Notes under the pieces: generated by a model
Told to the model about the DNA's origin: nothing
The model's input: the letters and a program-made list of their open reading frames with translations, nothing else
Databases searched by the model: none
Part shown: piece after piece, positions 13,886-18,099 of the stretch
Numbering within the stretch: the first letter of the stretch is position 1
Layout: each line of letters opens with the position of its first letter
Position numbers and translations under genes: made by a program
Origin: Opitutaceae bacterium
GTDB taxonomy: Bacteria; Verrucomicrobiota; Verrucomicrobiia; Opitutales; Opitutaceae
DNA length: 39,185 nt
Assembly: GCA_018667915.1 (NCBI GenBank)
Contig: JABIRI010000143.1
Span: forward strand, 1-39,185
Direction of reading: 5' to 3'

Positions 13886-16369
13886 ATGTTGACCTTGTCC
13901 TCTCCCGTTTACCGTCGTTCGGCGCTGCTTCTTGCTACGCTCTTGATTTGCGTCGGTTCGGTCCACGCTCAACTGTGGCGGCGCACTCCGAAGGTTGCAC
14001 CAACCCCGGGAGTGAATCAGGAGCATCTTAACGCATTTCTGCGTCCCCTTTACACGACGCGAGCTACCTTATCCCGTGACGGTCGCCATCTGGCATACAC
14101 CATCACCAAAGCCGGCAGCACCACCATAGAAGTTGTGGGCACAGACTACCCTTATCCCCGCCGCAGCATCACTCTGGGAGACTTGGCGGAAGCACGGCTG
14201 ACGGCTCTCGATTGGATCGCTCCCGGGCGACTCGTATTCGCCACGGAGGAGTGGACTATCGGGGTGATCGACATTGACCAGGAAGTGGCCCGAGCGGTCC
14301 TCGACCCGATTCGTTTCTCCACCGAAATCATCCCCTTCGATGTCAACCTTGCGGCTTTTGGACCTGAGCAGGATTCCCTCAGAGATGTATCTTATAAAAT
14401 CGACCGCCCCCCGCGATTGGTTCGATTCGCCAACCATTCCCGAGCCAAGGTGATCATCGAGGGCGTAGCCGGCGCCCATCTTCGTGATTCGCGATGGGTG
14501 ACGGCCGAGCTCAATCTTGATACGGGCGAGGTGAAGTTGCTGGACGCGGTCGACATCTCTACTCCTGCGATGCGCGCCCTGATCGATCGGTCAGGACGAT
14601 TTCGTCTCGTGGAAGAACGAGATAAACTGCCGATTCAATGGCGGGTGGGCGCCAAAGAATCCAAATTATTCAAGAAGCGTTGGCGATCGCTCGACAGCGT
14701 GCTTCCTCCCGAAGTGGCGGATCCCTTCTCTGCGAATGCGGATACGTTGTGGACCGAGCGAAGCTTTCCTCTGGCCTTCGACGCCGATCCCGACGTGCTC
14801 ATCTACGCCTCGAACGTCGGGCGAAATACCTACGGAATTTTCGGGATCGACCTCAGCACTGGAGAACCCACTAACCTCGCCGCGATTGATCAAAAAATTG
14901 ATCTGGCTGATCCCGCGGCCACGCTTTTCAGCCCCCCGCTCGGTGATCGGGAAAGTCACTTCCGGAGTTTCAACGTGGCCATGCACTACACCGAATTTCG
15001 GGCCGACCGGGCTCCGTCTCCGCTAATCGTGGATCGCAATTCCGGTCGTATGATCGGGATTCGACCGCCGCTCGAGTTTGCGCGGACCCGCTGGATCGAT
15101 CCGCGGCTCACTCTCGCCGATGCCGAAATCGCCCGCGCATTCCCGGACCGCGACCATCGGATCATCGATTGGGACGACACCCAATCCCGGTTCCTCGTGC
15201 ATCTGTCGTCCGCCAGTGATCCCGGGCGCTATTTCGTGTTCGAAAAACCGAGCGGCAACTGGACGGAGTTTGTGCAGGCCTCACCGCAACCGACCCGTGA
15301 GCAACGGCACCACACCGAACGCTTTACCATCCGCTCACCTTCCGGTCTGCCTATCACCGGTCAAATTGCGGTGCCCAATAAACCGTTGATCGACCCGCCC
15401 TCATTGGTGGTCTATTTTCCGGATGCCCTCTGGCAATCCCCTCCATCCGGATATTCACCGGCAATGCAAACGCTCGCGGAGACCGGTTGTCTGGTCCTGC
15501 AGGTTGACTATCCCGGCACGTCGGGGCGAGGAAACGAGTTTCTATTCTCCGCTCGCGAGGCCCCTGATCAGGCCGCTCTCGCCGCAGTCGAAACAACCTT
15601 GAAGTGGTTACAAACCAAACACTCTTTTTCGCCCCGCCGCATCGCGGTGGTGGGAGCCGGCTACGGCGGGTGGTTGGCTCTGCGCGCCGCCGAGCTGCGG
15701 CCCGATCTGTTTCGTTGCGTAGTCTCCCTCAATGGCATCAACAGCCTTGAGTCACTCACCCGAGCCCCCCCAGAGCGCGAATCGCGCGAATCGGGCTATC
15801 GGCGACAGGAACAAGCCCGAAACACAATGGCCTATGAGCAGTCCATCCTGGACGACTTAAATACTCTCATGAAGCGAGGGGGAAACACCGAGGAAACCAC
15901 AAGTTTCGAAGACCCCACGGACGCCAAAAATCTTGAGGCCTATAAAGACCCCACTGGAACGGACAACCCGGATTCGTTATCCACCAGAATCGCCGCGTTT
16001 CGCAAGATGAACGACCATACCGTGGCCAAGGCGGTAAACCTGCGCGGACGCCTAGCTTCGTGGTATTTCCCCCAGGATTACATCCGCGGTAAAGAAGGCT
16101 CCGTGCTGCAGGATCTCGAAAAACTGATGGCGCCCCTCCTGATTTGCCAGGAAGTCGACAGCCTGTCAGCGCGCAGTGATGACGCGATCGCACTACGCCG
16201 ACAACTCCGACGACTGAAACGGGAACCTCGGTTCTTTGAGCTTCCAGCCGCCACCTATGGCCGCTCCCTCGAACAGCGTCCGGAGACCTGGCTCGAAGTG
16301 GCTGATTTCCTCTACACCAACCTCTACAACTTCAACGTGGAAATCGGCCCAACTGAAGAAGTGCTATGA
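13886..16369 (+). CDS. Exported S9 (prolyl oligopeptidase-fold) protein lacking catalytic Ser and His
   Basis: An 827-aa exported protein with a signal peptide (ALLLATLLICVGSVHA). Residues about 45-470 look like the N-terminal beta-propeller of S9 peptidases. Residues about 480-810 are the alpha/beta-hydrolase domain, with DYPGTSGRG (541-549) and RIAVVGAGYGGWLALRAAELRPDLF. The nucleophile elbow, GxSYGG in active members, is GAGYGG here: residue 592 is Gly, codon GGC at 15659-15661. The catalytic His region, normally GHG or similar, reads AATYGRS with Tyr791. A plausible Asp remains (Asp758). A polar insertion of about 80 residues (630-710) is also unusual. It is therefore likely a non-catalytic pseudoenzyme. 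The open frame is intact, so it is not a decayed gene. Its stop overlaps the next start (ATGA). Confidence 0.85.
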   Translation: MLTLSSPVYRRSALLLATLLICVGSVHAQLWRRTPKVAPTPGVNQEHLNAFLRPLYTTRATLSRDGRHLAYTITKAGSTTIEVVGTDYPYPRRSITLGDLAEARLTALDWIAPGRLVFATEEWTIGVIDIDQEVARAVLDPIRFSTEIIPFDVNLAAFGPEQDSLRDVSYKIDRPPRLVRFANHSRAKVIIEGVAGAHLRDSRWVTAELNLDTGEVKLLDAVDISTPAMRALIDRSGRFRLVEERDKLPIQWRVGAKESKLFKKRWRSLDSVLPPEVADPFSANADTLWTERSFPLAFDADPDVLIYASNVGRNTYGIFGIDLSTGEPTNLAAIDQKIDLADPAATLFSPPLGDRESHFRSFNVAMHYTEFRADRAPSPLIVDRNSGRMIGIRPPLEFARTRWIDPRLTLADAEIARAFPDRDHRIIDWDDTQSRFLVHLSSASDPGRYFVFEKPSGNWTEFVQASPQPTREQRHHTERFTIRSPSGLPITGQIAVPNKPLIDPPSLVVYFPDALWQSPPSGYSPAMQTLAETGCLVLQVDYPGTSGRGNEFLFSAREAPDQAALAAVETTLKWLQTKHSFSPRRIAVVGAGYGGWLALRAAELRPDLFRCVVSLNGINSLESLTRAPPERESRESGYRRQEQARNTMAYEQSILDDLNTLMKRGGNTEETTSFEDPTDAKNLEAYKDPTGTDNPDSLSTRIAAFRKMNDHTVAKAVNLRGRLASWYFPQDYIRGKEGSVLQDLEKLMAPLLICQEVDSLSARSDDAIALRRQLRRLKREPRFFELPAATYGRSLEQRPETWLEVADFLYTNLYNFNVEIGPTEEVL

Positions 16370-18099
16370 GACCACCACGCCATCGCCACTGGCAGATCCT
16401 GCTGCTGCTGCCAGCCCTGGGCATGCGCCTGGCTCTCGCTCAATCAGAACCGCCATCATCCACCGACGAACCGGTCCTTTCACTTCCCCCGTTTGTAGTG
16501 GATCACGATGACCGGAGAACGCGCACCTGGCGTTTCGTTTCCCTGCCCGAAGTCGATTTCGAACTGCTTACCGATGTTGATTCTCAGCAGGCCCGAGATT
16601 TTGCCTCCAACTACTTTCGGCAAGAGCAACTGCTTAACCAACTCATTCCAGAACGTTTTCTTTGGCGATCCGATCAACCCAAGCGCCACCTGCTGATCGC
16701 GGATCCGGGCGGATCAGCCATTCGCGACTCCACGATGAACGCCCTGTTCGGCAATATTAAGAATTCAGGAAAGAAAACGGGGATGCGGCTGATGCCCAAC
16801 ATTCGCCTCGACGACGGCGAGACCTCCATGGTCTACGCCTACTCCCGGCAGCAAACTCCCGACGCGCTCGTTCGGCTTACGCTCTACGGAAGATCTGAGA
16901 TCAATTTCTCCTTCCTCACCAACCGAATTCGTTTCCTACTCGCCCGTCGCACGCCCGCTCTACCGCATTGGTTCGTCGAGGGCCTGAGTGGCGTCTATGA
17001 TACCAGTGAGTTTAGTCAGGACGACATCGAGATCGGCCCGGTGCTCTGGATCTCGGGCAGCGAAGCCGATGCCCTGCGGCGCAATTCAAATCGCCCGCGC
17101 CAGTTACTCCCCCTGTCGCGATTGTTCTCCACCCTCACGACCGATCAAAGTGTCGCTAGCCGCGAGGCATGGATCCGCCAATGCACCCTTTTCGTGCGCT
17201 GGGCCATGTTTGCAGAGGAGGGCCGCTACCGGGACGCTCTTTGGAAATTTGTAGACGGCACGGTAACGGGGGGGGCCTCCGATTCATTTTTCCGAGAATG
17301 CTTTGGATTCAGCTTCGCGGACGGTCGCGACATCCTCAGTGACTACCTAGCGACCGCGACGAATGATGACCACCGCATCGCACCCCGCCGATTGCCCCGA
17401 ACACCTCGTTTTCAGGTGCGCCGGGCGACGCCCGAGGAGATCTGGTTTGGACGGTTGGAATGGTCTCGCTTGGCCTTTATCTGTGCCGATCAACATTTCC
17501 CGGAATTACGCGATGCCTACCTGAAAAACGCCCGAAACACGGGGCGTTTGGCTCAGCAAGAAACAACTGACTCGGCCCGCATCCAACTTTCGCTCGGTCT
17601 ATTGGAATTTAATGCCAAAAACTTGAAGACCGCGTTGCCGCTGCTGGAGCAAGCCACGGCCCGAGTTCCCGGGTCCGCTTCCGTCTACTACGCGATAGCC
17701 GCCTGCCGCTACCAAGCAGCCCATGCCGCGTTGCCTGCCGACACTAAATTTTCGATCGATCAAACCGGTGAAATTCTCGCAAACCTCGATCTCGCCCGCC
17801 GTCAGCGCATGCCGATGGCACGTGTTTACACCTTGCTCGGCAACCTCTGGTTGAATTCAGAACTCACTCCCAGCGCTAGTGATTTGGAAGAACTGAGCGA
17901 AGGCATTGACCTGTTCCCCAGCGTCGCTCGCATCAGTTTGAGCGTCGCCCTGCTTCACGCAGAGTTGGGCCAAATTGATCGCGCCTTGGAGGTCGTCTAC
18001 ATCGGCCTGCAGAACAGTCGCTCGCAACAGGATATCGCCCAATTTTATCGACTCGAGGAAACTTTATTGGATCAGCTTGCCCTGCTGTCCGACGGGTAG
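16366..18099 (+). CDS. Exported TPR protein with a gluzincin-like domain lacking HExxH
   Basis: A 577-aa exported protein starting inside the stop of the S9-like gene (ATGA). The signal peptide (ILLLLPALGMRLALA) is followed by VLSLPPFVVDHDD, which resembles the SPFxV motif at the N-terminus of verrucomicrobial TonB-dependent receptors. Residues 60-340 look like a DUF1570/M1-like metallopeptidase: PALPHWFVEGLSGVYD matches the third-ligand region, Glu205. The zinc motif HExxH, expected about 18 residues earlier, reads SFLTN (182-186). Residues about 395-577 are helical, with TPR-like units (ARIQLSLGLLEFNAKNLKTA, then VYYAIAACRYQAA). It is probably a non-catalytic partner of the preceding protein in the periplasm or at the outer membrane. 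The exact family is uncertain. Confidence 0.72.
   Translation: MRPPRHRHWQILLLLPALGMRLALAQSEPPSSTDEPVLSLPPFVVDHDDRRTRTWRFVSLPEVDFELLTDVDSQQARDFASNYFRQEQLLNQLIPERFLWRSDQPKRHLLIADPGGSAIRDSTMNALFGNIKNSGKKTGMRLMPNIRLDDGETSMVYAYSRQQTPDALVRLTLYGRSEINFSFLTNRIRFLLARRTPALPHWFVEGLSGVYDTSEFSQDDIEIGPVLWISGSEADALRRNSNRPRQLLPLSRLFSTLTTDQSVASREAWIRQCTLFVRWAMFAEEGRYRDALWKFVDGTVTGGASDSFFRECFGFSFADGRDILSDYLATATNDDHRIAPRRLPRTPRFQVRRATPEEIWFGRLEWSRLAFICADQHFPELRDAYLKNARNTGRLAQQETTDSARIQLSLGLLEFNAKNLKTALPLLEQATARVPGSASVYYAIAACRYQAAHAALPADTKFSIDQTGEILANLDLARRQRMPMARVYTLLGNLWLNSELTPSASDLEELSEGIDLFPSVARISLSVALLHAELGQIDRALEVVYIGLQNSRSQQDIAQFYRLEETLLDQLALLSDG

Follow-up and report, generated by a model that had tools for sequence, protein, structure and literature searches.

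A recurrent pair of predicted exported peptidase homologs lacking their catalytic residues in Opitutaceae

Pseudopeptidases are mostly known singly, often beside an active relative. Among the S9B dipeptidyl peptidases, the inactive DPP10 carries glycine in place of the nucleophilic serine (GKGYGG), and the likewise inactive DPP6 carries aspartate at this position (PMC4350108). In bacteria, CspC of Clostridioides difficile and MamO are reported to keep protease folds without catalysis (PMC4619724, PMC4794232), and the periplasmic tetratricopeptide repeat (TPR) protein LbcA of Pseudomonas aeruginosa partners the protease CtpA (PMC8764530). Here we describe two adjacent genes, A and B, of an Opitutaceae bacterium (assembly GCA_018667915.1). 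They lie within a stretch of 39,185 nucleotides (the window; contig JABIRI010000143.1, positions 1 to 39,185) and encode members of two unrelated peptidase families, both without the catalytic residues of those families.

Homology to peptidases, loss of catalytic residues, purifying selection and coupled co-inheritance are demonstrated for A and B. We propose, with a probability of roughly 0.6, that the two proteins constitute an ancient exported non-catalytic two-protein module, most likely an envelope complex that binds peptide or protein. An earlier note, made from the letters of the window, had described two signal-peptide genes sharing an ATGA. The open reading frames (ORFs) and their overlap on the + strand were found as described, and the pair appears to be translationally coupled. 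Both products are predicted from their sequences to be exported; both signal peptides were called by eye. The source genome (4.28 Mb, 99% complete) is in 361 contigs, and the named relatives that carry the pair are all Opitutaceae or Opitutales (Verrucomicrobia) records.

A belongs to peptidase family S9 by descent, with homology across both the beta-propeller and the alpha/beta-hydrolase domain. It scores 57.7 bits against the Pfam Peptidase_S9 model (cut-off 22.6), and it aligns with an active S9 enzyme at 100% in hhalign. The AlphaFold model (predicted local distance difference test, pLDDT, 85.4; predicted template modeling score, pTM, 0.83) has as its best structural match the acylaminoacyl peptidase of Aeropyrum, 1ve6 (Z 30.3, 466 aligned residues, root-mean-square deviation 4.4). 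Structural comparison with active S9 enzymes, a check of the kind proposed in the earlier note, gave an S9 fold over the whole length, with matches to 1ve6, 8wt1 and 5l8s at Z 28–30 that are paralleled by a profile match. A phmmer search of the PDB with the A sequence alone returned no match, whereas the family profile did match structures there, including 4wjl.

When A is aligned with S9 enzymes from related genomes, Gly592, the Ser of EVDSLSA and the Thr of ATYGRS stand in the columns of the catalytic Ser, Asp and His, respectively. The GAGYGG elbow with its GGC codon at 15659–15661 and the ATYGRS His loop, both noticed earlier, are therefore confirmed, and the Ser-Asp-His triad that marks an active S9 enzyme is absent. 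The nucleophile column is Gly in all 28 A proteins with a B neighbor; 15 of these pairs were retrieved with a pattern that demanded this Gly and provide no independent evidence for it, while the other 13 came from searches free of such bias. Of 15 lone A proteins, 12 have Gly in this column, 2 have Asp and 1 has Trp, and 19 of 20 S9 outgroup proteins have Ser there. The Asp and His columns are degenerate among the paired A proteins. On stereochemical grounds, Gly or Asp would be expected at the strained nucleophile elbow after release from catalysis, and DPP10 (Gly) and DPP6 (Asp) provide precedents. Elsewhere in the source genome (contig C107), two tandem S9-like genes (L003 and L004) also have triad columns that are partly non-canonical, in a region where the alignment is unsure.

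B itself matches no peptidase model in Pfam, and its relationships emerge from its relatives. Two of them, L114 and L116, exceed the Pfam cut-off for DUF1570 (L114 with 32.2 bits versus 22), and the profile of the paired B proteins aligns with L114 over profile residues 59–570, nearly its whole length (hhalign 99.2%, E 2.3e-19). B thus descends from the DUF1570/gluzincin family, as the DUF1570-like kinship proposed earlier had suggested, and the peptidase fold predicted for its N-terminal domain rests on this profile homology. Whole-chain structure searches with the AlphaFold model of B (pLDDT 85.5, pTM 0.84) listed only TPR matches, which are assigned to the TPR part identified by Pfam; they neither support the gluzincin fold nor argue against it. 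LbcA gives the B profile its best sequence match in the PDB (E 4e-9), through its TPR region.

The HExxH register in B was fixed by aligning relatives that retain HEYVH or REYIH. The earlier note had read SFLTN (residues 182–186) at the expected HExxH position, which proves to be three residues out of register, the correct segment being TNRIR (185–189); the third-ligand motif HWFVEGL that it named is present at residues 201–207. The zinc site can be followed through the relatives of B as a series, from HEYVH...WLNEG (L114) and HEGTH...WLEEG (L116), through REYVH or REYIH...WLEEG (e.g. L095, L100) and KEYFR, to total loss in every paired B. No HExxH is found in the B proteins of the 28 pairs, and the combination of HExxH and a downstream Glu that characterizes gluzincins (MA clan) is missing from B. 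Tandem pairs of B-like genes without A occur at L098, L099, L100, L101, L109 and L112. In most of them WxEEG is intact and HExxH is half preserved (REYVH, KEYFR), so that the B family has another branch in which decay has gone less far.

Both proteins have therefore lost the known catalytic residues of their families, as the earlier note had claimed. They could still act as enzymes, one or both, through other residues, for example by a different hydrolysis or transfer reaction in the S9 chamber. The strong conservation of the fold and of the oxyanion-side elbow region (GxGxGG) would fit such an activity, as would the conserved Asp columns of A (D383, D405, D561, D567). However, no Ser, His or Cys that might serve as replacement nucleophile or base is conserved in the 28 paired A proteins (S739, present in 25 of them, is not close to the elbow in sequence), the positions flanking the elbow Gly are free to vary, and the 28 paired B proteins share no conserved His or Cys. 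We consider a retained enzymatic activity quite improbable. A shift of the catalytic residues to other positions was rejected, since no candidate columns were found.

All A proteins without Ser group together in a single clade (support 96) that is separate from the S9 outgroup. Early branches represented by lone A genes have lost Ser and kept both Asp and His (L149, L153), or have lost Ser and kept His (L083). As early branches lack only Ser, the nucleophile appears to have been lost before the remaining triad residues, with Asp and His following. The nearest pair-bearing relative of the source genome, G005, shares 82% nucleotide identity. In this comparison A has a ratio of nonsynonymous to synonymous substitution rates (dN/dS) of 0.22, with 0.17 in its hydrolase domain, and B has a ratio of 0.14, with 0.13 in its pseudo-gluzincin domain. 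The loss is old and shared with relatives, so it is no lesion peculiar to the source copy; the conserved Gly and the low dN/dS speak against a recent lesion or pseudogene, which was rejected. Neither alternative conserved residues nor a paired relative with intact residues turned up, the outcomes named in advance as contradicting the loss of catalysis.

It might still be supposed that the pair is decaying without function and that the source copy is just not yet broken. In the G005 copy (L072, contig C12), despite the low dN/dS, codon 215 of A carries a one-base insertion and codon 104 of B is a stop, disruptions that reflect either recent loss or assembly error. In addition, a stop codon breaks up a lone-B paralog in the source genome itself (L089:3497-5263, contig C80); its related copy in G005 (L073) is intact. 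Against such decay stand the dN/dS values from the same G005 comparison, the intact pairs across many genera, whose A proteins at other loci have only 25–40% identity to the source A, and the presence of as many as three intact pairs in one genome (L081). Decay is accordingly highly improbable.

The earlier note had suggested looking for the same gene pair, with the same substitutions, in related genomes. The search yielded 28 intact A-B pairs in Opitutaceae-like genomes, all with the elbow Gly and none with HExxH, a recurrence well above what chance would produce. In 25 of the 28, the in-frame start of the second gene lies in a four-base overlap with the stop of the first. The order is reversed, with B before A, in one clade (L075/L139/L144), where the four-base overlap is also present. 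L081 holds three intact pairs, and L069 and L146 hold two each. The genes flanking the pair vary between loci, and no conserved third partner gene was seen. ORFs that overlap or adjoin lone A genes were dismissed as partners, being unrelated genes or resembling antisense shadows. A candidate docking tail for the TPRs of B at the C-terminal end of A (VxVGxxxEV, EEVD-like) was likewise rejected: the regular expression matches 24 of the 28 paired A proteins, but several S9 enzymes that still have their triad end in tails of this kind, so the tail is ancestral and not specific to the pair.

The A and B trees are congruent, with a patristic-distance correlation of 0.90 (largest of 2000 shuffles, 0.26) and 16 of 25 splits in common (largest of 500 shuffles, 2), although such congruence is in part expected for any two linked genes. 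What goes beyond linked inheritance is that the linkage has been retained through duplications and order reversal. Several other points weigh against the proposed module. The pair is absent from many genomes of the family, and lone A and lone B genes exist, so that neither strictly needs the other. Under strict thresholds, a search of 384 genomes of the class found B-like proteins in 18, every one from the source family; for the phylum the figure is 19 of 388, the extra genome belonging to the same order. Furthermore, the absence of known catalytic residues is no proof of inactivity. A and B might act separately, their operon merely co-expressing two exported scaffold proteins; that each is found alone in other genomes, and that the variable neighbors would suit a mere co-regulated unit, fits this possibility. 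We regard it as rather unlikely in view of the overlap in 25 of 28 pairs, re-established after order reversal, the duplication of the whole unit at L069, L081 and L146, and the congruent trees.

In the non-catalytic module that we favor, A is an S9-type propeller and alpha/beta-hydrolase protein whose Ser was lost in the ancestor of the A clade, being replaced by Gly in almost every member; Asp and His drifted away later. B is a DUF1570-like gluzincin that has lost HExxH and carries a TPR superhelix. Co-produced by translational coupling and then exported, the two most probably come together as a complex, either in the periplasm or at the outer membrane. In this complex A would bind peptide or protein without catalysis, the emptied S9 chamber being the likely site, and B would serve as a TPR adaptor, resembling the ancillary-subunit role of the inactive DPP6 and DPP10. 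The complex, its ligand binding and its location are inferred.

A segment of B directly after the signal peptide, VLSLPPFVVD, resembles a TonB box, and its residues P41, P42 and V45 are invariant in the 28 paired B proteins. A TonB-box matrix built solely from ten TonB-dependent receptors of the source genome, with boxes aligned by eye, scores the segment at 15.0, and 98% of other proteins score below 10.3. Of 65 B proteins, 21 exceed this 98% level, as do 1.2% of shuffled B sequences but not one of the 38 A proteins; apart from B proteins, the highest scores belong to TonB-dependent receptors. B is not a beta-barrel, and the segment is common to most of its relatives. Receptor-like genes with the same box adjoin A divergently at three loci (L159:2297-5092, L162:2292-5240 and L163:2316-5069), and for L159 and L162 the presence of a Plug domain was confirmed. 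These findings are no more than suggestive of a link to TonB. One could imagine A-B as a TonB-linked envelope machine, in which TonB would pull on B via a working box and a peptide or protein would sit in the emptied S9 chamber of A, alone or with the receptor encoded beside it at these three loci; the chances of this are slim. If true, two dead peptidases would have given rise to a system that handles its substrate by force and without catalysis. The coordinates of all features are listed in Table 1.

Table 1. Positions of genes A and B and of their features in the window.
Feature	Position	Strand	Basis or remark
Gene A, predicted exported pseudo-S9 peptidase, 827 aa	13886..16369	+	ORF; Pfam Peptidase_S9 57.7 bits; AlphaFold pLDDT 85.4, pTM 0.83; Z 30.3 to acylaminoacyl peptidase 1ve6
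A signal peptide, ~residues 1-28 (...GSVHA/QLW)	13886..13969	+	read by eye: basic N-end, hydrophobic core, AxA-like end; model helix 10-32
A beta-propeller region, ~residues 44-500	14015..15385	+	strand pattern of model; S9 matches over 40-818
A alpha/beta-hydrolase domain, ~residues 501-815	15386..16330	+	Pfam S9 stretch 525-627; model
Nucleophile elbow GAGYGG, residues 590-595, Gly592 (15659-15661) replacing Ser	15653..15670	+	Gly in 28/28 paired A
ATGA overlap, A stop / B start	16366..16369	+	same overlap in 25/28 pairs
Gene B, predicted exported pseudo-gluzincin with TPRs, 577 aa	16366..18099	+	ORF; hhalign to DUF1570-bearing L114 99.2%; AlphaFold pLDDT 85.5, pTM 0.84
TonB-box-like segment VLSLPPFVVD, B residues 37-46, right after signal peptide (..LALA/QSE)	16474..16503	+	P41, P42, V45 invariant in 28 paired B; matrix score 15.0 vs 98% level 10.3
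B pseudo-gluzincin (DUF1570-like) domain, ~residues 52-345, boundaries approximate	16519..17400	+	homology to DUF1570-bearing relatives
TNRIR, B residues 185-189, lost HExxH position	16918..16932	+	alignment with relatives
HWFVEGL, B residues 201-207, third-ligand motif	16966..16986	+	Glu205 kept here, not conserved among paired B
B TPR superhelix, ~residues 356-577	17431..18096	+	Pfam TPR_14; model helices; VIA-align matches to TPR domains

A search of open-access text found no literature on bacterial pseudo-S9 pairs or on the function of DUF1570, and no such pair is described in the text searched. Two unrelated peptidase folds, both dead and apparently exported, have been co-inherited, duplicated and diversified in many genera of one family. 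The pair is therefore a natural experiment on what selection preserves in a dead peptidase, and it points to a function in the envelope of Opitutaceae-like Verrucomicrobia that has yet to be described. When genes of the A and B type are annotated as peptidases, these genomes are credited with more proteolytic capacity than they have.

Among known systems, A shares its whole-length fold with the acylaminoacyl peptidases and related S9 enzymes (1ve6, 8wt1, 5l8s), which, in contrast to A, keep the Ser-Asp-His triad. The mammalian DPP6 and DPP10 (structure 4wjl, matched by the A family profile) also combine an S9 fold with a replaced Ser and have a non-catalytic role, a likeness to A that holds by the sequence criterion only. 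They are membrane subunits of animal Kv4 channels that keep His and Asp (PMC4350108), whereas A is bacterial and predicted to be exported, retains no residue of the triad and is encoded in a coupled pair with another dead peptidase. With its other S9 branch and other partner, A is no member of the DPP6/DPP10 group and has an independent origin within bacterial S9. CspC is subtilisin-like and MamO trypsin-like, both from families other than those of A and B, and neither is known as part of a coupled pair of two unrelated dead peptidases. B is homologous to L114 and L116 and through them to the TPR-bearing proteins of the DUF1570/Peptidase MA superfamily (PF07607, PF13485), from which it differs in lacking HExxH. 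Its resemblance to LbcA is confined to the TPR part; LbcA is a lipoprotein, and its partner CtpA is an active C-terminal processing protease.

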